Source of the DNA: an uncultured SAR116 cluster alpha proteobacterium
Lineage (GTDB): Bacteria > Pseudomonadota > Alphaproteobacteria > Puniceispirillales > Marisalimonadaceae
Length of the DNA: 64,000 bases
Direction: 5' to 3'
Assembly: GCA_902622875.1 (NCBI GenBank)
Contig: CACNRW010000005.1
Span: 1 to 64,000 of the forward strand
This document shows positions 4,128 through 12,958 of the stretch, one piece after another (the stretch's first letter is position 1; each line of letters opens with the position of its first letter). The position numbers and the translations under genes are program-made. The notes below the pieces were generated by a model. It saw only the letters and a list, made by a program, of their open reading frames with translations, was not told the origin of the DNA and searched no databases.

Positions 4128-4553
4128 GCCAAAAATTGGATTAAATATAATGGTGAAATACTAACGATTGTCGATCTTATTTTGAGCACCAACGCCACCA
4201 AACCATCCTTGAACCCTGGTCCGTGTTCAATGGACTACGGTCAATGGGCAGACCACCCCTTGACCATTTACTAATGTTGATTGAGGAAAGGGTGCAGTAA
4301 CCCCGGACCCATGGGCTGCGTCTACTGTAGACAAGGTTGTAGACAAGCTTTTTATCATTGACGGACTCACTGTATTTGCTAAGCTATTGATATTGTTGGA
4401 GTTTAGATAAAACCATTGCTCTGGTTAGGCATCACACCTCATCTCGAGCGCACCACAATTTGGCTTCCAACGTCAAAAACGAAAACTCTTATTTCAATAT
4501 TGGTTGAAAAAAAGCAAAAAGACTTACGATAATGCTTCAAATGGAGTATTTTC
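4128..4553. other. Unexplained G+C-richer segment with hairpins and a short tandem repeat
   Basis: No convincing gene lies here. The segment is visibly richer in G+C than the chromosome on either side. It contains a 6-bp inverted repeat TTGAAC/GTTCAA (4209-4214, 4225-4230), a 10-bp inverted repeat with one mismatch (4239-4248, 4256-4265), and a direct repeat TGTAGACAAG at 4326-4335 and 4338-4347. It could be a structured RNA or decayed mobile DNA. I could not match it to a known family. Confidence 0.4.
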
Positions 4554-5210
4554 ATGAGACATTTAATGCGAATAATTTCCAAAGAATTTGGATTGTTAAT
4601 CGTCGAGGTCAAATCGGAGGTAAATAATTTCAAAATTTGTTTTAAGAAAGAAACCCCACCAGTCCAGAAACTAGGAATGGGTCTGACAATCATTAGAGGT
4701 TTTTCTTTAAAACTAAAATTATTGATTTTGACTTCAGTTGTTATATTATTAAGTATTGTTTCAAGCAGTTGGAATTCTGAGATTCCTTCTAAAAAAGCTA
4801 CGTTTACATCACCTAAAAAAGATGTATCAACAAGCTCAAATGTTTCCACTCAACCTTCAAAAAGGCAAATTATCCCCTTGACAGAAAAAAGATGTAAAAG
4901 CCTTAATTCAGCGAATGGAATTTCAACTATTACTGTTGAATATGTTGCGAAAAAGGCGGGGGTTTCACTACGTAGTGTTAGTCTTTGGAAAGCGCGATAT
5001 TCCAAACAAATAGGGGGGGTGTGCTACTTCACTTTTGACACTCCCAAAGGTCCCAAGACGTGCTGGTCTTCTACGGCAAAATCTGAAAATGAAAAAGTAG
5101 CTTATTTTATGGGTGCACCTAATATACCTGTGCTAGTTCAAGATCCCGGTAAAACGCCTTTTCTCGTTGTGGGTCATTGCAATGATTTCAGACCAAAGAC
5201 TAGAAATTAA
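4554..5210 (+). CDS. Hypothetical membrane-anchored protein of the accessory region
   Basis: A 218-residue open frame of unknown function. GGAG at 4543-4546 sits 7 nt before the ATG at 4554. A hydrophobic segment at about residues 50-70 (LKLLILTSVVILLSIVSS) would anchor or export the remainder, which holds several cysteines. An internal ATG at 4677 would instead give a standard signal peptide. The frame passes through a G7 run at about 5012-5018, a site prone to slippage. Base composition differs from the neighbouring conserved genes, and nothing recognisable lies beside it. It may be a degraded or foreign gene. Confidence 0.4.
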   Translation: MRHLMRIISKEFGLLIVEVKSEVNNFKICFKKETPPVQKLGMGLTIIRGFSLKLKLLILTSVVILLSIVSSSWNSEIPSKKATFTSPKKDVSTSSNVSTQPSKRQIIPLTEKRCKSLNSANGISTITVEYVAKKAGVSLRSVSLWKARYSKQIGGVCYFTFDTPKGPKTCWSSTAKSENEKVAYFMGAPNIPVLVQDPGKTPFLVVGHCNDFRPKTRN

Positions 5211-5417
5211 ACTTAAACTTACTGCACACCATCTATAGCCCATGCTTGGGGTGGGTCACGTGCTATGCCTAATTTATGCTAGACTGCAACAAGAAAGTAA
5301 TTATCTTTTGTTACTATTGAAAATGCATCATGGGTATTAGCCGTAATACCCCACTGAATGCCTGAGTGATTCTCCCGTGAGAACTACATAACTTATTTAC
5401 CTACTGCATAACTAACA
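5211..5417. repeat. Intergenic segment with a perfect 8-bp stem-loop
   Basis: The arms GGGTATTA (5332-5339) and TAATACCC (5344-5351) close a GCCG tetraloop. No T-run follows, so this is not a standard terminator. The rest of the gap shares the higher G+C of 4128-5210 and holds no gene I can support. Confidence 0.4.
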
Positions 5418-6767
5418 CTACCACCAGACATGAAAAACATTATTTTTCTTTAGAACGTGATGTTTCTTATCCTTTTTAATTTTTTCTGTTAAAGGGAAAT
5501 ATGTTTTGTCTGTGTCATAACGTTTTACTGAAATGCCTAACTTCTTAGCTAGGTCTTCAACTTTAGATATTTCGTAAAAGTTTCCTGGAAGATACAAAGT
5601 TGAAATAACTCTATACTTTGTAAAGTTATTCATCTCATTATGGAACACTACTTTGTCTAAGTTTTGTGTGTATTCGTTTCCAAATTGTCCAAATATTTCA
5701 ATTACAATATCAGTATCACCATCATTATTTAGATCACAACCACTTAAATATGGATGCCAAACCCAATCGTTTGGATCTTCTGGTTGTTCGTGAATAGTTT
5801 CTACGACATAACCTCTTCCATTAAATTCTATTCTGTCAATACTATATCCTGAATACCATTTTCTGTTATCACCTTTAAGACTGGATAACATCAGAATATC
5901 TACATTGCCGTCGTTATCAAAGTCAGTAAATTCTGCGTCCTGCATATTTCTGGTATTCAATCCATCTATTATAGTCTTGGATTTAAAATTACCTTTGCCG
6001 TCTCCCCAATATACTGCTGTCCTAGGATCACCTCCATCCAGCAACATATCAAGATTGCCATCATTATCTATATCCCATAACTGAACATTGTTGTAACGTT
6101 TTCCAGCATTTACTACTGTCTTACGTTTGAAGTTACCATTGCCGTCATTGTAGTATGCTGATATTTTTTTCTTATTTGTTACCGTAGAAACAATATCTAT
6201 ATCACCATCACCATCAATATCACCTGTTGCACCGCCATGATGTAATCCTTTTTCGTCTAGCTTAATTCTTTTATAACCATTTGGACTACTTAACATAATA
6301 ATATTAGGCTCAGGACTCCAAGGTTGAAAATCTCTTCCATGTTGAATAAAAACTACATCATCAATATGATCCCCATTAAAGTCACTTGCTAGGATATTTC
6401 TTGCCATCCAGAAGTTAAAGTTATCAGGTATTTTATAATTGTCTTTAGGACTGAATACCATATACTCACTATATCCTTGGCTTCGTTCCTTGTTTCCTTC
6501 ATGAAGCCAACTTGTACTTGAAAACATTTCATCACTGAATCCTGCAATAATTTCTAGTGTGCCATCGCCATATAGATCTGCTATGCCTAAGTTTCCTTTA
6601 TCAATACGAAAAGCATCCATTTCATTAAAGTTTGGCTTGAGATTGGGCTGCGTAGCCATTTTACAGAAATAATCTGTTCTAACTGAACGACTAGTCGTTT
6701 CGTTAATATCTGCAACGGCTGTGCCTACAAGGAAAACTAGTATTAGAATAGAAGATAGTAGTTTCAT
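5418..6767 (-). CDS. Exported FG-GAP/VCBS repeat protein
   Basis: A protein of about 449 residues with a cleavable signal peptide (MKLLSSILILVFLVGTAVA). It has at least six repeats carrying EF-hand-like calcium loops of the form DxDxDGxxD: DLYGDGTLE, DFNGDHIDD, DIDGDGDID, DIDNDGNLD, DFDNDGNVD and DLNNDGDTD. Such repeats fold as beta-propeller blades in extracellular or periplasmic proteins that bind ligands, surfaces or glycans. I prefer the ATG at 6767 because GAAAGAG lies just upstream; the ATG at 6782 has no such site. It sits in the accessory block beside a large inverted repeat. Its specific role is unknown. Confidence 0.75.
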   Translation of the reverse strand: MKLLSSILILVFLVGTAVADINETTSRSVRTDYFCKMATQPNLKPNFNEMDAFRIDKGNLGIADLYGDGTLEIIAGFSDEMFSSTSWLHEGNKERSQGYSEYMVFSPKDNYKIPDNFNFWMARNILASDFNGDHIDDVVFIQHGRDFQPWSPEPNIIMLSSPNGYKRIKLDEKGLHHGGATGDIDGDGDIDIVSTVTNKKKISAYYNDGNGNFKRKTVVNAGKRYNNVQLWDIDNDGNLDMLLDGGDPRTAVYWGDGKGNFKSKTIIDGLNTRNMQDAEFTDFDNDGNVDILMLSSLKGDNRKWYSGYSIDRIEFNGRGYVVETIHEQPEDPNDWVWHPYLSGCDLNNDGDTDIVIEIFGQFGNEYTQNLDKVVFHNEMNNFTKYRVISTLYLPGNFYEISKVEDLAKKLGISVKRYDTDKTYFPLTEKIKKDKKHHVLKKNNVFHVWW

Positions 6768-6856
6768 TTTATTCTCTTTCATTATTAATTAATTATAATA
6801 TTATTTACACTTTGCGTCTGTCCTTAATTTATGTTTCTTTGCATATCTAATTTTAG

Positions 6857-6901
6857 TAATCATTTTTATTTGATTTTCATGAAATCAAATAAAAATGATT
6901 A
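6857..6901. repeat. Perfect 20-bp inverted repeat with a 5-nt loop
   Basis: Positions 6857-6876 and 6882-6901 are exact reverse complements separated by 5 nt. The stem is strongly A/T-rich (core TCATTTTTATTTGAT). It lies between the start of the FG-GAP gene and the first att-like repeat. There is no T-run after it, so it looks more like a cruciform or recombination-related structure, or a very stable 5' hairpin, than a terminator. Confidence 0.7.
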
Positions 6902-6950
6902 TATGATTTCAATATATGAAAAATGGATTTCGTACACTTCTTAAAATATG

Positions 6951-7139
6951 GTACGAAAAATGGTACGAAAATCAACTAAACTGGCTTGACTGTGTTTACA
7001 ATACAGAATAACAATTGACTTGTAATTGGTGGAATACCCTAGAATTACTTGACTATGTTGATTATACATAAGTGTCATCAAGTAACTCAAAAACCAGTGC
7101 CGCAAGGCTTCCCGGTTCGATTCCGGGTATCCCTACCAA
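6951..7139 (+). repeat. att-like direct repeat, copy 1
   Basis: This 189-nt stretch recurs in direct orientation at 12053-12240 with roughly 90% identity and one 1-nt indel. It begins with two tandem GTACGAAAA units (6951-6959, 6963-6971); an inverted GTACGAAA lies just outside at 6928-6935. It ends in the 3' half of a tRNA. That is the architecture of an integrase attachment site: arm-type repeats plus a tRNA core. The two copies bound a segment of about 5.1 kb and would be its attachment sites, or the junctions of tandem insertions. Confidence 0.8.
7086..7138 (+). pseudogene. 3' half of a type II tRNA (probably tRNA-Leu), attachment core
   Basis: From the anticodon loop CTCAAAA (7086-7092, anticodon CAA if read as Leu) the sequence continues with ACCAG, a long variable arm (GCC-GCAA-GGC), a perfect T-arm CCCGG-TTCGATT-CCGGG (7111-7127), the acceptor strand TATCCCT, A and an encoded CCA (7136-7138). 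The matching 5' half (an acceptor AGGGATA and the D-arm) is absent upstream, so no intact tRNA can fold. Site-specific integrases often leave such 3' halves. The assignment to Leu rests on the loop and the long variable arm and is not certain; Ser is less likely. Confidence 0.7.
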
Positions 7140-7260
7140 ACTTCACAAATAAAGTTAGATAAAGATTTCAGAAGATTATTCGTAATTTTCAATTCAACCA
7201 ACATTTCTAATTTATCTAAACGTGGTACAAAATTGAGTATTTGATGACACTCAATGCTTC

Positions 7261-7353
7261 TTACTTTTTGACTTTCTTTAGATATTTGACTGAAGCTTTA
7301 GCTTTTACTTTAGCGTATCTATCCATATATGTTTTTACAGAAGCATGACCTAA
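7261..7353 (-). pseudogene. Decayed tyrosine recombinase, C-terminal fragment
   Basis: Thirty codons on the minus strand end at TAA (7261-7263) and read LGHASVKTYMDRYAKV followed by a lysine-rich tail. LGH with a tyrosine about ten residues later (MDRYAK) is the box II region and nucleophile of phage-type integrases. The codon just upstream is TGA (7354-7356) where a tryptophan would be usual, and before it LLLH is still readable before similarity fades. The rest of the gene is missing. It lies about 120 bp inside the first att-like repeat, where an element's integrase is expected. The remaining 7378-7676 is A/T-rich with no gene seen. Confidence 0.7.
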
Positions 7354-7676
7354 TCAATGTAATAACAAACTTATAATTTTATTTAATATTATGTAAATAA
7401 TTTAGTTTAAATTTTTTGATTTTATTTAGGTTTTAGGTCTTTTATATTTCTTATTTAGATAATTTATTTTCTGAATAAATTCAGTCTTAATATCAAAATT
7501 ACGTTAAAGTCAAAAGTTTAAAACCCATTTTAAATAATTTTTATTTTGCAAATATTGGTTAAAGAAATACAAATTAAAATGCTCTAAAAATCTTATAGAT
7601 TAATTACGTGTAGAAACATATTCTTTCCCATTATGCTTTAAGTAAATTTGATGATTTAAATATATTTAATTTTTTA

Positions 7677-8345
7677 ATGTTTTTACGCTATTATTCAATT
7701 ATGTTTTTAAATTCTCGATATCAATATTTACTACTAGGTTTGTGTATTGTTGCACCAAAATCTATAATTGAAGTTGGTCTAGCAAGAGGTATTAGAGCTT
7801 TTCAAATGATCCAATTAGCAAAAAAATACCATCCAGATATAAAATATACGGGTTATGACGTATTCGACACCAAAGATGCTAATTGGCATAGATTAGTAGG
7901 CAATGGGAAAAAGGTAGAAGCAAAATCAATAATTGAAAAAAATCTTAAAAGTTTATCAAATAATATAAATTTATTTGAAGGAATGACATCAGAGACATTG
8001 TGGCCTTATACAAATAAAGCTGATTATGTTTGGCTTGACGGAGACCACAGATTAGAAAGTATTAAAAAAGACTTTGAAGCTTTGAAAGAATCTAAAGTAA
8101 TAGTATTTGATGATTACTATTCAACTGGAGAACATGATGGTTTTCATATTGAAAATTATGGATGCAATAAAATTGTTGAAACTTTGAATATAAATGAAAT
8201 TTTTATTACTCCAGAAACAAAAGATCTGCCTAATATAAGAGTTGTCTTTTGGTCAAAGGATATATTTTTGATTAACAAACTTAAAAAATGTTTATCAGAT
8301 AGTAATGAAATAAAAAAAATTATAAAGTTAATTAGTCAAAATTAA
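7677..8345 (+). CDS. Class I SAM-dependent methyltransferase (Methyltransf_24-like)
   Basis: A 222-residue protein. IIEVGLARGIRAFQMIQLA near residues 30-48 is the SAM-binding motif I. YTGYDVFDT is the strand 2 acidic region, and VWLDGDHRLESIKKDF plus KVIVFDDYY are typical of Methyltransf_24 proteins, which often modify glycans or small hydroxylated molecules. The substrate is unknown. It is the only plus-strand gene inside the repeat-bounded island. No good ribosome binding site precedes ATG 7677, and ATG 7701 is an alternative start. Confidence 0.65.
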   Translation: MFLRYYSIMFLNSRYQYLLLGLCIVAPKSIIEVGLARGIRAFQMIQLAKKYHPDIKYTGYDVFDTKDANWHRLVGNGKKVEAKSIIEKNLKSLSNNINLFEGMTSETLWPYTNKADYVWLDGDHRLESIKKDFEALKESKVIVFDDYYSTGEHDGFHIENYGCNKIVETLNINEIFITPETKDLPNIRVVFWSKDIFLINKLKKCLSDSNEIKKIIKLISQN

Positions 8346-8724
8346 AATCAATTGATTAATATTTCTCTAAGCGTAACCAGTCACTGTACTTTTGTATCTT
8401 TTGAGATTTCAGAGGGAGTTTAATTGTTAAGTATTTAAATATATTCTGATAAATAATTTCATAATGTAAGAACAAAAACATTTATTGTGCATATTTTAAT
8501 CATGTATTTTTTTTTGAATTTTTAATGATTCAATTTTAATCATATTTACAAATAAATTTTTAAATGTTCTTCATTAGTTGTATTCACTTAAGGATTAATG
8601 AAATATGATTATATCACTTTCTCCCTAGTGTAGTTAAAAGAAATACCACACCCCCCCCCTCTCGTGTGGTATTTTTTTTTGGAATAACAATAATTAACAC
8701 CATTTAATCTGCGTATAATTAAAT
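8346..8724. other. Intergenic stretch inside the island
   Basis: About 380 nt of A/T-rich DNA between the methyltransferase gene and the convergent minus-strand genes. Apart from the hairpin at 8641-8680 I see no gene or repeat in it. Confidence 0.5.
8641..8680. terminator. Strong hairpin terminator with a C-run in the loop
   Basis: AAATACCACAC (8641-8651) pairs perfectly with GTGTGGTATTT (8664-8674), and a T-run follows to 8680. The loop holds a run of nine C (starting at 8651), very unusual in this A/T-rich DNA. On the minus strand the stem is followed by TTTCTTTT-like sequence, so it may end transcription from both convergent genes. Confidence 0.8.
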
Positions 8725-9183
8725 CTACCAAACGCTGCTCCCAATAGACTTTATATCGCTTACTTTCAACAAACCTTCCATACTAATGACATGGAAATGA
8801 TCTAGACATGAATCTTTAGCTTCAACTTCCCAGTAATTTTTAATTATGTTCATAGAAATTTCGTGTAGATCACCTTTTTTATTATTTGTGTAACCAATAA
8901 AATCCCAGTAATCTGAAAAGCTATGACGATCAAAAAAACTATTCCAAAGGTAATACCTGGACGGTTTTATATTAATAAAATAACTATCTGCTCTATTGTG
9001 TGCAGGTGACCACATCCATTCAACTGAAAATAAAAAAACTACCTTTTGCGGTTTTACTCTAGGTCTATTATTTTGAAGTGGTTTTTCACTATCAATATAA
9101 AGTTTATTTGAATTATTTATTGAAGGTAAATCTTTAACTTCAAAAATCTTTTGCTGAGGAAATTCATATTCATAATATGACAT
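8725..9183 (-). CDS. Hypothetical island protein (152 aa)
   Basis: I do not recognise this protein. It is soluble, aromatic-rich (many Trp, Tyr and Phe) and lacks a signal peptide. Notable segments are FSVEWMWSPAHNRADSYF, DYWDFIGYTNN and the His-containing CLDHFHVIS. GGAGG lies just before its ATG, inside the end of the preceding gene, and it overlaps that gene by one base (TAATG), so the two are coupled. It is the last gene of the minus-strand group and is followed by the strong hairpin at 8641-8680. Confidence 0.6.
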   Translation of the reverse strand: MSYYEYEFPQQKIFEVKDLPSINNSNKLYIDSEKPLQNNRPRVKPQKVVFLFSVEWMWSPAHNRADSYFINIKPSRYYLWNSFFDRHSFSDYWDFIGYTNNKKGDLHEISMNIIKNYWEVEAKDSCLDHFHVISMEGLLKVSDIKSIGSSVW

Positions 9184-9425
9184 TATTTATCCTCCTTATA
9201 AGTCCACCCATTTGCAATTAGGACATTTTTTATATTCTCTATCATTTCATCTTTAGTAGTATCCTTATCAGCAATTTTTTCTAAAAAAAGGTTCTTTTTA
9301 TTTTCAGCCTTTTCTCTTGCTTTAATATAATTTTTCAAGGACTTATTATGAGATGATACTCTAAAACCCTCTTTATAAATTGGGTCATTAATATCTAGAT
9401 ATTTTGTAGATTTGATTTTAGCCAT
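9183..9425 (-). CDS. Small hypothetical island protein (80 aa)
   Basis: A lysine-rich, largely helical protein of unknown function (KIKSTKYLDINDPIYKEGF, KAREKAENKKNLFLEKIADKD). It has a good ribosome binding site (AAGGAG) and overlaps the next gene by one base. Its start is preceded by the 51-nt leader element at 9439-9489, which it shares with the 81-residue gene upstream. An adaptor, antitoxin or DNA-binding role would fit its size and charge, but nothing in the sequence decides this. Confidence 0.6.
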   Translation of the reverse strand: MAKIKSTKYLDINDPIYKEGFRVSSHNKSLKNYIKAREKAENKKNLFLEKIADKDTTKDEMIENIKNVLIANGWTYKEDK

Positions 9426-9438
9426 TATTTTTCTCCTT

Positions 9439-9489
9439 TTTAGTACTTTTGTCTTTATGACAGGGCGTACAAGTTGGTTTATAAATACC
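9439..9489 (-). promoter_or_regulatory. Repeated leader element, copy A
   Basis: Read on the minus strand, a GGTATTTAT-type block is followed by AACCAACTTGTACGCC, 14 nt, and AAAGTACTAAA just before the Shine-Dalgarno. Copy B at 9772-9822 has the same 51-nt length and keeps both blocks exactly. The 14-nt spacer differs in sequence but can still fold: here TGTC-ATAAA-GACA, there GGC-ATCCA-GCC. An outer GTAC/GTAC pairing is possible in both. The pattern suggests a structured 5' leader or a duplicated operator. Confidence 0.6.
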
Positions 9490-9513
9490 CTTTGATTTGA
9501 TTATATAGTTTTA

Positions 9514-9759
9514 TCAGGCTCCAAATTCTTCCATCATTTGAAGTGCATCCATTGGGTCTAAACCAGGAAATTCTTTTAAACCTTCACGAATAATTGATAA
9601 TCTAAATTCACCAATCTGTTCTCTTTGTTCAGGAGTAAGTTGGTTAATTTTTTCGTCTGGGGTTAAAGTTTGTTTAAGCTTTTCTCTATTTAAACGAAGC
9701 TTAGTCGCCATTGCATTAGCAAAGTCTTGGTCTTTTTGTGAAAATGTGTTTGAAGTCAT
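9514..9759 (-). CDS. Small hypothetical island protein (81 aa)
   Basis: A helical, charged protein with no recognised domain: an N-terminal part DQDFANAMATKLRLNREKLKQ, a central LTPDEKINQLTPEQREQIGEF, and an acidic C-terminus DPMDALQMMEEFGA. It has no signal peptide or membrane segment. A GGAGG ribosome binding site precedes the ATG, and the second copy of the shared leader element lies immediately upstream. Size and position are compatible with a regulator or a partner of the membrane nuclease-like protein encoded upstream, but this is inference. Confidence 0.6.
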   Translation of the reverse strand: MTSNTFSQKDQDFANAMATKLRLNREKLKQTLTPDEKINQLTPEQREQIGEFRLSIIREGLKEFPGLDPMDALQMMEEFGA

Positions 9760-9771
9760 TTGTGCCTCCGC

Positions 9772-9822
9772 TTTAGTACTTTAGGCTGGATGCCAAGGCG
9801 TACAAGTTGGTTATTAAATACC
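9772..9822 (-). promoter_or_regulatory. Repeated leader element, copy B
   Basis: This is the second copy of the 51-nt element described at 9439-9489. GGCGTACAAGTTGGTT (plus strand, 9797-9812) and TTTAGTACTTT (9772-9782) are identical in the two copies, with a 14-nt spacer containing GGC/GCC arms at 9784-9794. It ends about 12 nt before the ATG of the 81-residue gene, so any folding would influence access to the ribosome binding site. Confidence 0.6.
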
Positions 9823-9886
9823 TTATAATTAATATATAATTATTTTATTTGGACTTCAACATGTAATTTAGTTTTAAATATTACTT

Positions 9887-11347
9887 CTAACCAAATAATA
9901 AATATTCTAAAGCTACTGCTGTTGATGCTCCAATTGTTCCTAATTTTAAACTTTCTTTAATTTTGTTTCTAAAGCTTTTAGAACCTTTTCGGTTTTTTAA
10001 AGCTGCAATGAAAAGTCCAATAGCTGCTCCTGCTTCTGCATCTGGAATTATGTCAGGGTTTTCGGGAAAAATAAATTCATTGGTTTGCTTGTTAATTTCG
10101 TCTAATGAAAAACCACTATCATTAACATTTTCAAAAATATCTTTTACTTTTGTTGCAACTTCCGTTGTTGCATAGACCTCAATGTCTGGGTATTTCTCAA
10201 AATGTTCTGCTATACTCTCGGGATTAGAAACGGCTTTGAATTGAACTTCTTTTACTACATTTCCATCTATTAAAAATTCAATATCTGACCCTGCTTGATT
10301 AGTTTCCTCAAATAGTCTTGCAGTCAAACTATCACCATCTATATTTTCTTTTTTTGCCCATAACAATTCGTGATAAATACCTTTGGCGTTTGAAATCCAT
10401 CCAGTTATTTGATTAGGTTCTAGGCTAGTTACATACTCTCTAATTTCTTCTATAGATGATTCCTCAAATCTTTTTGCAGATCTCTGGAAAGCTTCAAGTA
10501 TCAAACTTTCATTATAGTCTAAGGTCTGATTTGAAACATCTGTGTTAGATAAGATTTTATATATAAATACAGTAAAACATACTGAAGCGCTGTGAATATA
10601 TTCAACTTTATTTATGTTTTTAGATTTAAAATAGCTATATGCATTTTTAAAAGATAAATATTCATCAGGTTTTTTAACTGAAAAATCTTTTTTTATTTTG
10701 ATAGATAAATTCATGATTTTTTTATTAATATTATTAAATTCTTTTCTTGTACCTATTCTCAGATTTTCTTGAATATCATCTTGTGCATTATTAATTAAAT
10801 CTAAAAGAGGAACTAAGCCACTTTTAACAAAAGTTTCTAAATCTTTGGTGCTAGTGTTATGGTTATTTTTTTTTAGATATTCGTTTATTACATAAGATAA
10901 AGAGGAGCATAGCTCTCTAATACGAATCTCATCTGCACTTAAATCTAATGCTTTTCTTTCTTTGCCATACCAAAGATTACCTAAAGTATTTCTTAAAACA
11001 ATTCCTGCCCCAAACCCAGTTAATGCTAAAACCACTCCTCCAGCTGCCATTCCACCTCCAACCACACTTCCTATAGCTGCCATAGTAGCAGACACTTTTG
11101 CTGCGCCTGAGAGCGTTGCTATTGCCGTGCCTGTAGAAGCTGCTCCAAAGGTAGAAACACCTGTCGACAAAGCACTCATGGTAACAACCCCTGATCCTTT
11201 TGAAGAAAATATTTTAAGAAAAATACTTTTTTTCTTACTAGGTACTTGCAAGATGCAAAGCTGTAATTCTCCTAAGAGTTTTAGTAACTCATTAAGGTGT
11301 TTAATCACTATCTTTTGTTTTTTAAATGATTTGTAAATGCTGATCAT
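9887..11347 (-). CDS. Glycine-rich membrane protein with a PD-(D/E)xK-like nuclease motif
   Basis: The 486-residue protein is not recognised as a whole. Residues 52-122 form a Gly/Ala-rich hydrophobic region (glycine-zipper-like, one or two hairpins in a membrane), 140-310 are helical, and 463-485 form a second hydrophobic segment. Residues 320-371 read GIYHELLW...SDIEF...VKEVQFKA, giving E327, D355 and Q369-x-K371. This spacing resembles the E/D/(E or Q)xK core of PD-(D/E)xK nucleases. A membrane-associated nuclease in a mobile island suggests defence, a toxin or interference with other elements, but activity is inferred. No strong Shine-Dalgarno marks ATG 11347. Confidence 0.6.
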   Translation of the reverse strand: MISIYKSFKKQKIVIKHLNELLKLLGELQLCILQVPSKKKSIFLKIFSSKGSGVVTMSALSTGVSTFGAASTGTAIATLSGAAKVSATMAAIGSVVGGGMAAGGVVLALTGFGAGIVLRNTLGNLWYGKERKALDLSADEIRIRELCSSLSYVINEYLKKNNHNTSTKDLETFVKSGLVPLLDLINNAQDDIQENLRIGTRKEFNNINKKIMNLSIKIKKDFSVKKPDEYLSFKNAYSYFKSKNINKVEYIHSASVCFTVFIYKILSNTDVSNQTLDYNESLILEAFQRSAKRFEESSIEEIREYVTSLEPNQITGWISNAKGIYHELLWAKKENIDGDSLTARLFEETNQAGSDIEFLIDGNVVKEVQFKAVSNPESIAEHFEKYPDIEVYATTEVATKVKDIFENVNDSGFSLDEINKQTNEFIFPENPDIIPDAEAGAAIGLFIAALKNRKGSKSFRNKIKESLKLGTIGASTAVALEYLLFG

Positions 11348-11447
11348 TAGAATTGATGATACATCGCAATAAATATTACTGATATTATTAAATGAACAAG
11401 TATTATTGAAATTTTTAACATTTTAGAATGGTGCTATCATTAGATAA

Positions 11448-12014
11448 TTAAATTCCTCCAACAATTTCTAAAGCCTCTGCCACTTCTTTTCTTAAGGTAT
11501 GCTGATAATGTCCACTATCATCTTCGAAGGAATCACTGTTCTCTAAAGTTATTGTTGTTATCCATAAAGGGCTACCATCTTTATATTTTCCTTTAGGTGT
11601 TACATCAAGGTAATCTGCTATCATCCTACCTAAATTACCATATTGAGTGTTAGCAGCATAAAAATGTTGATAATTAGCAGCTTCTGCTAACTGGGATGAA
11701 GTTAATTTTTTTTCTGGAGCATTATAATGTGCTTTAAGCATTGCCCATTGACCATCTGACAAATTTAGAGAACTAAATGCCTTAACAAATTCTTGTGAGG
11801 TTGGTATGCCATTAACTCTATTGGATGCCATTGCTTTTTTATAAGAAGAGATTGCATTTTGTGCTGATTGGATTGCTTCGTCTCTTGTTATATTTTTGCC
11901 CTCACTAAATTTTTTCTTGTTAGAATCATATATAATATATCTACATTCAGTTTGATATTCCCCAATTTTAACTGTAAAGGGACCAATCTTTATTTCAGAG
12001 AATTTTGTTTGCAC
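11448..12014 (-). CDS. Hypothetical island protein with a C-terminal domain seen near HNH nucleases
   Basis: A 188-residue protein starting at GTG 12014. The N-terminal part (about 1-75) is a small mixed alpha/beta segment. Residues 80-188 (LSDGQWAMLKAHYNAPEKKLT, AANTQYGNLGRMIADYL, GSPLWITTI, then LRKEVAEALE) recall a domain I have seen attached to HNH or modification-dependent restriction proteins; I name no family. No HNH motif is present. It is the first gene of the minus-strand group and begins 38 bp inside the second att-like repeat, so it may be an early or regulatory gene of the element. Confidence 0.55.
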   Translation of the reverse strand: MQTKFSEIKIGPFTVKIGEYQTECRYIIYDSNKKKFSEGKNITRDEAIQSAQNAISSYKKAMASNRVNGIPTSQEFVKAFSSLNLSDGQWAMLKAHYNAPEKKLTSSQLAEAANYQHFYAANTQYGNLGRMIADYLDVTPKGKYKDGSPLWITTITLENSDSFEDDSGHYQHTLRKEVAEALEIVGGI

Positions 12015-12052
12015 AATTAATCTTATCCAAATCTATTCATTATTAAAATAGT

Positions 12053-12240
12053 GTACGAAAAATGGTACGAAAATCAACCAAACTGGCTTGACTGTGTTTA
12101 CAATACAGAATAACAATTAATTTGCAATTGAGGGAATACCTAGAATTACTTGACTATGTTGACTATACATAAGTGTCATCAAGTTACTCAATTACCAGTG
12201 CCGCAAGGCTTTCCGGTTCGATTCCGGGTATCCTTATCAA
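12053..12240 (+). repeat. att-like direct repeat, copy 2
   Basis: This is the partner of 6951-7139 in the same orientation, including the tandem GTACGAAAA units at its left end. Its tRNA-derived part (12187-12239) is more decayed: the T-stem has one non-Watson-Crick pair and the CCA is changed to TCA. It marks the cox-side boundary of the island. The remaining 12241-12958 is A/T-rich and holds no gene I can support; it must contain the cox promoter, which I cannot place with confidence. Confidence 0.8.
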
Positions 12241-12958
12241 TGTTTCACAACTAGATCGTTAAATTTAAAAATTTTCTATATTTGAAATTAATTTTGATAG
12301 AACAGAGTCAACTTCGCATACATTTTTATTGAAACAAGCTATATATTTAATCCAGCAAAAAAAACTTGATCTACTTGCTATTTCTTTACAGAAATCAGAT
12401 AAGAAAAAATCTGACTTTGGATAGCCACATAATAAAATACTAACTGGCATATTCTTTTTATCAATACCTGTGGAACAACTAACTATTGGTTCAGATAAAA
12501 CAGTCTAAGGCGCAATATATATTTCAGTTGACCAGCACTTTCTAGACCAATTGGAGCTGATTTAGGAGTGGCTAGAAAAATAAAAATATTATTCCTATCA
12601 AAAACAGAGAAAATTATATGTTTGTTTTATTAATTCTGATCTGAGGCTAGTGTAACCTTTTTTTTATTTTCAATCCTTGATTAATTATTTTTAATAATCT
12701 TTTACCAATAAGTTCTTGGATGACTTAATAAAAACTCCAAATTCTTTCCAGTTTAATAAATTATTGAACGGAACTGGTGATTTAACATTTTCTACTTTAA
12801 TGCAATTAATTTTCTGATTTTTTCCAAAAATTCTTAACTGATTAAGGTATCTATAGATTGTTAATATGTGAAATAGTTTTTGTTGGTAATTTAAAAAAAA
12901 TTATATATAAGTGTATTAGTTTAGAATGATTTTAAATTAGATTTATTGGAGGGTCTAT

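Follow-up and report, generated by a model that had tools for sequence, protein, structure and literature searches.

What do two matching leaders do in front of two small genes without a nameable family, and do they act as RNA or as a DNA site? The question is raised by the window, a stretch of 64,000 nucleotides from an uncultured SAR116 cluster alphaproteobacterium (contig CACNRW010000005.1), in which the leaders precede genes for proteins of 80 and 81 residues. The initial annotation, made from the sequence, had proposed a structured cis-regulatory RNA or a duplicated operator, specific to the element and perhaps undescribed. Our analysis supports a structured cis-regulatory RNA with compensating changes, adjoining the ribosome-binding site and lying in an island. 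Given the observed family membership, covariation, link between RNA and genes, and island setting, we consider it very probable that the leaders are SAM-V switches on the cargo of a mobile SAR116 island, OFF at high SAM.

A recurrent pair of leaders

Leaders A and B form a matching pair on the minus strand (Table 1). The two 51-nt blocks described initially (9439-9489 and 9772-9822) are both present with 0 mismatches. In each, AACCAACTTGTACGCC and AAAGTACTAAA flank a 14-nt spacer and are identical in A and B, exactly as listed. The shared part is longer than had been described, as GGTATTTA further upstream is also common to both leaders and provides one P1 strand and the triplex strand. The spacers differ in sequence, yet both form the hairpin that had been read in them (TGTC/GACA and GGC/GCC). 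The start codon, estimated at about 12 nt from the end of each leader, follows the shared AAAGTACTAAA after 13 nt in A and 12 nt in B.

Allowing up to three mismatches, A and B are the only two copies in the 1,958,445-base assembly (81% complete), where the reversed pattern used as a control has 0 matches. Our own covariance model, R1, likewise returns two matches in this genome, namely A and B. At the same tolerance, the leader pattern is present in 29 of 101 genomes, the window's own included, and the reversed control has 0 matches in every row of the scan. A pair of leaders spaced by 329-333 nt, as in the window, occurs at 11 other loci in 10 other genomes.

A simple local duplication of one leader, confined to this place, would explain two copies 333 nt apart. 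It is refuted by the recurrence of the leader in other genomes, both by pattern and by R1 (62 of 136 genomes), and in relatives with a leader pair, P1 and P3 distinguish the two members as they do here; we regard it as having practically no chance of being correct. Because the pattern and the spacing of the pair both recur elsewhere, A and B are not a product of chance either. Two further loci (G001:C6:60929 and G032:C11:40057) carry a SAM-V-like leader with AAAATACTAAA and have no called open gene behind it; these are apparently decaying copies.

Table 1. Positions of the two leaders, their structural elements and the neighbouring genes in the window
Feature	Position	Strand	Evidence or remark
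Predicted SAM-V riboswitch A, leader of the 80-aa gene	9430..9499	-	RF01826, 45.0 bits; R1, 82.9 bits at 9430-9494 (seed member)
P1 5' strand of A, GGGU	9487..9490	-	Pairs with GCCC 9463-9466; A4 columns 5-8/29-32
P2 5' strand of A, UUGUAC	9467..9472	-	Pairs with 9440-9446 (GUAC, bulged U, AA); A4 columns 23-28/49-55
P3 hairpin of A, UGUC-AUAAA-GACA	9450..9462	-	A4 columns 33-45
Shine-Dalgarno of the 80-aa gene, GGAG	9433..9436	-	Read from sequence
Predicted SAM-V riboswitch B, leader of the 81-aa gene	9763..9833	-	RF01826, 28.7 bits (below gathering score); R1, 89.1 bits at 9763-9827 (seed member)
P1 5' strand of B, AGGU	9820..9823	-	Pairs with GCCU 9796-9799
P2 5' strand of B, UUGUAC	9800..9805	-	Pairs with 9773-9779
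P3 hairpin of B, GGC-AUCCA-GCC	9784..9794	-	As for A
Shine-Dalgarno of the 81-aa gene, GGAG	9766..9769	-	Read from sequence
80-aa protein, behind riboswitch A	9183..9425	-	Pfam, PHROGs, NCBIfam
81-aa protein, predicted all-helical, behind riboswitch B	9514..9759	-	Family searches, AlphaFold2
152-aa protein, overlapping the stop of the 80-aa gene	8725..9183	-	Family searches
486-aa candidate defence gene, just upstream of riboswitch B	9887..11347	-	PADLOC

Both leaders match the SAM-V class

When 3 kb around the leaders were compared with all Rfam models, leader A matched SAM-V (RF01826) with 45.0 bits, above the gathering score of 41, over positions 1-66 of the 66-position model. Leader B reached 28.7 bits, below the gathering score, over the full length of the model and with the same aligned structure as A. 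A scan of the whole window at the gathering score reports A alone, and standard annotation therefore misses B, which we assigned to SAM-V through its alignment with A and with relatives above the cut-off. The R1 scores of the two leaders (Table 1) are not independent support, as both are in the seed of that model. Judged by sequence and predicted structure, A and B thus both qualify as SAM-V riboswitches. The suggestion of an undescribed RNA family does not hold, as the class has been known since 2009 (PMC2704228).

Across 121 genomes, RF01826 lists 33 matches, 11 of them, in as many genomes, above the cut-off; R1 finds a match in 62 of the 136 genomes of the order, in 12 of its 20 genera, the two counts referring to differing genome sets and thresholds. 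By these figures, many SAM-V copies of the SAR116 clade seem to escape the Rfam model, and the class looks under-annotated there.

Three covarying helices argue for RNA

The stems read initially correspond to two of the SAM-V helices: P2, with its bulged U, comprises GTAC/GTAC and the two preceding U-A pairs, and P3 is TGTC/GACA in A and GGC/GCC in B. Not included in that reading were the AUUU third strand and P1, formed by GGGU/GCCC in A and by AGGU/GCCU in B. We built an alignment, A4, of 37 distinct leaders of equal length, composed of one metY leader and 36 of the 57 distinct cargo leaders that could be parsed, one of which precedes an Mrr-type endonuclease. The 21 cargo leaders outside A4 comprise 17 of other length and four of the same length.

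Under the SAM-V pairing, 94.8% of the 592 cells of A4 are paired (87.7% in shuffles), 50 cells are changed on both sides (18.5 in shuffles) and the covariation score is 0.258 (0.111 in shuffles). None of 500 shuffles reaches the A4 values for paired cells, double-changed cells or covariation score. The number of pairs with a double change (5 versus 5.1) and the number of further pair types (12 versus 12.0) show no excess over shuffles. When the partners are slid by 1-3 columns, pairing falls to 29-57%.

All three helices contribute to this signal. P1 is paired in 98.6% of cells and two of its four pairs change on both sides; P2 is paired in 100%, with a change from A-U to G-C in 9 of the 37 leaders; P3 is paired in 81.1% of cells and has two-sided changes, its outermost pair forming in 9 of 37 only. 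The P2a pairing between the GG of the Shine-Dalgarno and the conserved CC of the aptamer is found in 98.6% of cells and carries little weight as evidence, because CC and GG hardly vary. In a wider tally, for which 151 of 168 sites could be parsed, 147 of the 151 pair TTGTGC with GCAC or TTGTAC with GTAC, and the main forms of P1 are AGGC/GCCT, AGGT/ACCT, GGGT/ACCC and AGGT/GCCT. A4 thus contains the H-type pseudoknot of SAM-V (P1 and P2 with the bulged U, plus P3), and both leaders lie beside a Shine-Dalgarno that P2a can hide.

The check originally proposed for metagenomes, whether further copies keep the pairing, was run in genomes, and P1-P3 pairing is kept. A duplicated DNA operator bound by a protein would account for the long identical blocks, but hardly for the covariation of P1, P2 and P3 in 37 leaders, which includes the pseudoknot helix P1, in which the 5' strand is found about 20 nt upstream of the strand it pairs with, nor for the match to a riboswitch family with a solved structure. 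The covariation speaks so strongly against a DNA operator that we consider it ruled out, with a residual probability that is negligible.

The leaders share P1, P2 with the bulged U, P3, the AUUU third strand and the position relative to the Shine-Dalgarno with the metY, mmuM and bhmT leaders of Candidatus Pelagibacter ubique. They differ from Pelagibacter SAM-V in a linker between P1 and P2 that is about 2 nt longer, in a C at position 18 of most leaders, in their location before small genes and an Mrr-type endonuclease in islands, and in the separate switch for each of the two window genes.

The ligand site and position 18

In the crystal structure of SAM-V, as described in PMC6061858, the bulged U47, A48 and A50 contact SAM; the bulged U contacts the adenine, and A18 pairs with A50, which holds the amino-acid end of the ligand. 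In the 37 rows of A4, the AAA, the bulged U and the second and third Us of the third strand are invariant, and the first third-strand U is conserved in at least 90%. The conserved binding-site bases (third-strand UUU, U47, A48 and A50) are therefore in place, and the one departure is the replacement of A18 by C. Among parsed leaders, C18 occurs in 21 of 24 from the 80-aa family and in all 11 from the 81-aa family.

With C18 beside the ligand-contacting A50 and unusual genes behind, the SAR116 leaders might represent a SAM-V variant with a changed ligand, a shift known for some riboswitch variants. However, C18 also occurs before metY-like genes of the same order (L003, L248, L249 and L251) and before homocysteine-methyltransferase-like genes (L030 and L036, sites not parsed in the tally), and A18 is found before some small genes (L024, L025 and L112). 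C18 hence tracks lineage and not gene. Together with the invariant or, for the first third-strand U, nearly invariant bases of the binding site, this leaves a change of ligand unsupported and, in our estimate, very improbable. SAM remains the expected ligand of the window leaders by analogy with the published class; as most parsed SAR116-type leaders have C instead of A18, affinity for it may differ from that of published SAM-V.

Genes behind and around the switches

The 80-aa protein has no Pfam family above the cut-off and no match in PHROGs or NCBIfam. PADLOC was run in addition on the 81-aa and 152-aa proteins: across these four collections the former has only weak family matches, none above the curated cut-off, and the latter has no family except one PHROG at E 0.085. 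We set aside the weak matches of the small proteins, as nothing convincing about function emerged from domains. The AlphaFold2 model of the 81-aa protein (pLDDT 82) has no fold match at E 0.001 in the PDB or in a viral library, and that of the 152-aa protein (pLDDT 41) is too poor for use. A tblastn search of 50,697 phage records at E 0.01 gave no match for the 81-aa protein, the 152-aa protein or a 139-aa member of a fourth family found under the same switch. The window genes behind the switches are without a methionine-metabolism domain, which is a feature of the known SAM-V examples and not of the RNA.

Since the 152-aa gene overlaps the stop of the 80-aa gene, the two are probably on the same transcript. 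The pair of leaders resembles the tandem SAM-II/SAM-V described before bhmT (PMC9481103) in that two SAM sensors would lie close by. Unlike that case, in which both aptamers are reported within one leader, a complete gene, that of the 81-aa protein, lies between B and A.

The 486-aa protein just upstream of riboswitch B matches the PADLOC models PDC-M72B (1.8e-24, residues 281-434) and PDC-M09A (5.5e-12, residues 64-155). Also upstream of the riboswitch pair and on the same strand, a gene at 11448-12014 encodes a 188-aa protein without a family. At 8636-8680, a strong hairpin was seen by eye (AAATACCACAC...GTGTGGTATTTTTTTT, its loop region containing consecutive Cs); it looks like a terminator between the operon and a converging methyltransferase-like gene.

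Leader and proteins travel together

By leader pattern we gathered at least 168 de-duplicated sites, 150 with a called downstream gene and 18 without. Among these at least 168 sites, 65 precede metY-like and 18 homocysteine-methyltransferase-like genes (labels that are our own reading of the sequences), 27 precede relatives of the 80-aa protein, 12 relatives of the 81-aa protein and 8 a family of 125-223 aa; smaller groups make up the others. Among the matches listed, most metY-like sites (62 of 65) and most methyltransferase-like ones (16 of 18) are in Pelagibacter/SAR11 records. The small-gene sites are found in SAR116 and other marine alphaproteobacteria. The same order also has SAM-V before metY-like (L248, L249 and L251) and homocysteine-methyltransferase-like genes (L255 and L256), and contrary to what had been supposed, the leaders are accordingly not specific to this element. 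In one closed genome of 2.75 Mb (G063), one SAM-V precedes a metY-like gene (L251) and another a small-gene operon (L250).

As these sites were gathered by the RNA pattern, they are no proof of a link to the genes behind. Proof comes from a protein-led test, in which homologues in the 136 genomes of the order were compared with the 91 strongest R1 matches. In the 81-aa family, 13 of 14 matches have SAM-V directly upstream, and the one exception is at the end of a contig; in the 80-aa family the same holds for 25 of 30 matches, the five exceptions being weak (E of at least 2.7e-8). The recurrence before homologues of the two small genes, which the initial annotation had named as a check, is thereby observed. 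For the 152-aa family, SAM-V is upstream in 12 of 13 cases (5 directly, 7 within 1 kb), and the remaining gene starts at base 15 of its contig. The fourth family has it in 28 of 31 (12 directly, 16 within 1 kb), with misses at E 4.3e-16, 1.6e-4 and 4.5e-4.

The fifth family, an Mrr-type endonuclease, has SAM-V upstream in all three cases (2 directly, 1 within 1 kb); it is the only nameable one of the five (PF04471 Mrr_cat, 5.7e-6 and 5.1e-6, above the curated cut-off). Second pieces of split genes were dropped from these counts (3 of 33 rows for the 80-aa family, 1 of 32 for the fourth). Many homologues come from the seed loci; genomes outside the earlier RNA searches contribute 1, 3, 4, 7 and 2 homologues of the 81-aa, 80-aa, 152-aa, fourth and Mrr-type families, respectively, one of these genomes (G109) being itself a seed for the 152-aa family and a query for the Mrr-type family. 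With SAM-V upstream of most homologues in a search led by the proteins, leader and proteins travel together.

In two Rhodobiaceae loci (L106 and L162), SAM-V lies about 40 nt before a predicted exported protein that is rhodanese-like by eye, possibly a further sulfur-related target.

Cargo of a hypervariable island

Positions 4200-12950 of the window form a hypervariable region upstream of a coxM-like gene (window 12959). We compared 11 neighbourhoods upstream of this gene, from the 15 genomes with a match. A SAM-V operon is present in three of them, those of the window, G026 and G024 (in the last, 15 kb away). In G010, G035 and G013 the conserved flanks are only about 0.29 kb apart and the site is empty, and five of the 11 hold other contents. 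The same flanks lie 11.1 kb from each other in G026 and enclose the SAM-V operon, an SF1 helicase-nuclease and, by eye, a RecQ-like protein, with two short integrase-like fragments near the edges (also by eye). An insertion facing an empty site in relatives, which defines an integrative island, is thus observed. For the window itself we infer the insertion, since only the right, coxM-like flank is seen and the left lies outside. The distribution is patchy: the 81-aa family occurs in 12 of 136 genomes, and an R1 match is absent from some near-complete genomes of the same genus, such as G014 (99%) and G031 (100%).

Among the integrases listed (PF00589), 13 of 43 SAM-V loci have one within 10 kb, compared to 2.03 expected at random places in the same genomes with the same integrase list, and for C5 methyltransferases (PF00145) at the same distance the count is 7 of 43 loci, compared to 0.22 expected; the significance of both is overstated, as loci of one genus are counted as independent. 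Conversely, 7 of 15 C5 methyltransferase loci are near SAM-V (15 of 22 rows used, four merged as pieces and three below the cut-off left out). For 23 of the 43 SAM-V loci, the window's included, the contig has no integrase among those listed, and the window's genome has no C5 methyltransferase match. The defence setting of the window therefore rests on the 486-aa gene and on its relatives.

Near other SAM-V operons we found an NgoPII-type endonuclease with a C5 methyltransferase, McrB/McrC and a restriction helicase, as well as Nmad3, ADP-ribosylglycohydrolase, integrase, excisionase-like and terminase-small-like proteins. The surroundings of some SAM-V operons, with integrase, excisionase-like, terminase-small-like, restriction and methylation genes, resemble defence islands with restriction systems and tyrosine integrases. 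Overall, the window's operon is very probably cargo of a mobile, hypervariable SAR116 island, and related islands hold restriction and other defence genes. The ADP-ribosylglycohydrolase (L173:6831-7511; PF03747, 8.3e-18) or a relative was seen near the SAM-V operon in 8 of 20 stretches.

A switch that would respond to SAM depletion

In the published model, SAM binding closes the SAM-V structure, hides the Shine-Dalgarno and turns the gene OFF (PMC6061858). The ligand and the OFF switching of the window leaders are taken from that work by analogy. Each leader would be a complete SAM-V riboswitch, with its 3' end running into the Shine-Dalgarno of the following gene. With SAM plentiful, the pseudoknot (P1, P2 and the AUUU third strand) would close on SAM and the conserved CC would pair with the GG of GGAG, so that translation is off. 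With SAM low, the third strand would release, and the 80-aa and 81-aa genes would be translated, each from its own switch; as each gene would have its own OFF switch, its protein is expected only at low SAM. The two genes and the 152-aa gene behind them would be the cargo of a mobile SAR116 island, and on related islands the same leader would control other small genes and the Mrr-type endonuclease.

The reading that we favour is a SAM-depletion switch on the cargo of mobile islands rich in defence genes, and from this company we infer a role in defence. We tentatively propose, with somewhat less than an even chance, that the cargo comes into action under SAM scarcity and serves in defence or in the upkeep of the mobile element. 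Low SAM may plausibly stem from methionine shortage or from phage-encoded enzymes that degrade it, and there are phages that evade restriction by depriving the host of its SAM. The neighbouring restriction genes and the Mrr-type endonuclease circumstantially favour the phage enzymes. Phages are described to use enzymes that degrade SAM (PMC7877911, PMC8406200), and in Pelagibacter genes behind SAM riboswitches are reported to rise under sulfur limitation (PMC5069961).

The small genes might instead serve the sulfur or methionine economy of the host, as an ordinary SAM-V regulon that helps when methionine is scarce. The published SAM-V targets are methionine genes (metY, mmuM, bhmT and metH, as given in PMC2704228), with osmC and ordL beside bhmT in a Pelagibacter operon (PMC5069961), and SAM-V precedes metY-like genes within the same order. 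Pelagibacter likewise has a hypervariable region with SAM riboswitches, and two of its small genes rise in sulfur-starved cells (SAR11_1163 and SAR11_1164; PMC5069961); unlike here, the long region upstream of these genes is called riboswitch-like, and SAM-V is not named in that description. Against a metabolic role, the families are patchy (the 81-aa family in 12 of 136 genomes) and sit in variable islands, some near integrases and methyltransferases, the small proteins show no enzyme domain, and the same switch also precedes an Mrr-type endonuclease family. We therefore hold such a regulon to be somewhat unlikely.

A stronger version of the SAM-depletion switch would make SAM-V an alarm in SAR116 islands, in which a drop in SAM frees the small proteins and the Mrr-type endonuclease as a riboswitch-gated immunity, with a mixable set of proteins and several copies of the switch along one operon as part of the same design. 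We regard this version as quite unlikely.

The RNA itself is a known class, and what looks new is its control of small island genes and of an Mrr-type endonuclease. We found no report of riboswitch-controlled cargo in defence islands in the open-licence literature, and, in that literature apart from the founding paper (PMC2764483), none of SAM-V before small island genes, before an endonuclease or in SAR116. The reach of SAM-V is thereby widened from methionine enzymes to several uncharacterised protein families on mobile DNA, and these families gain a testable signal, low SAM. If the cargo were defensive, it would link a metabolite riboswitch directly to bacterial immunity, and would fit the reported use of SAM-degrading enzymes by phages (PMC7877911, PMC8406200).

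Chimeric genes and a leader on a phage contig

Two chimeric genes were seen by eye. One (L185:9402-9542) encodes a 47-aa protein that begins like one SAM-V family and ends like the 80-aa family; in the other (L178:9595-10092), a protein of the 82-aa type continues into an integrase-like tail. The chimeras suggest recombination among cargo genes, perhaps via the shared leader.

In viral contigs, the stricter leader pattern has 0 matches and the looser form one. On the contig of IMG/VR UViG 3300045135_001836, a SAM-V leader (L172:6138-6203) scores 73.2 bits with R1 and lies below the Rfam cut-off; it precedes a gene for a 74-aa protein without a known family. The contig is that of a phage, with a terminase large subunit (phrog_2, 5.6e-44) and small subunit (phrog_1482, 3.1e-14), and its leader is predicted to be a phage-borne SAM-V riboswitch.
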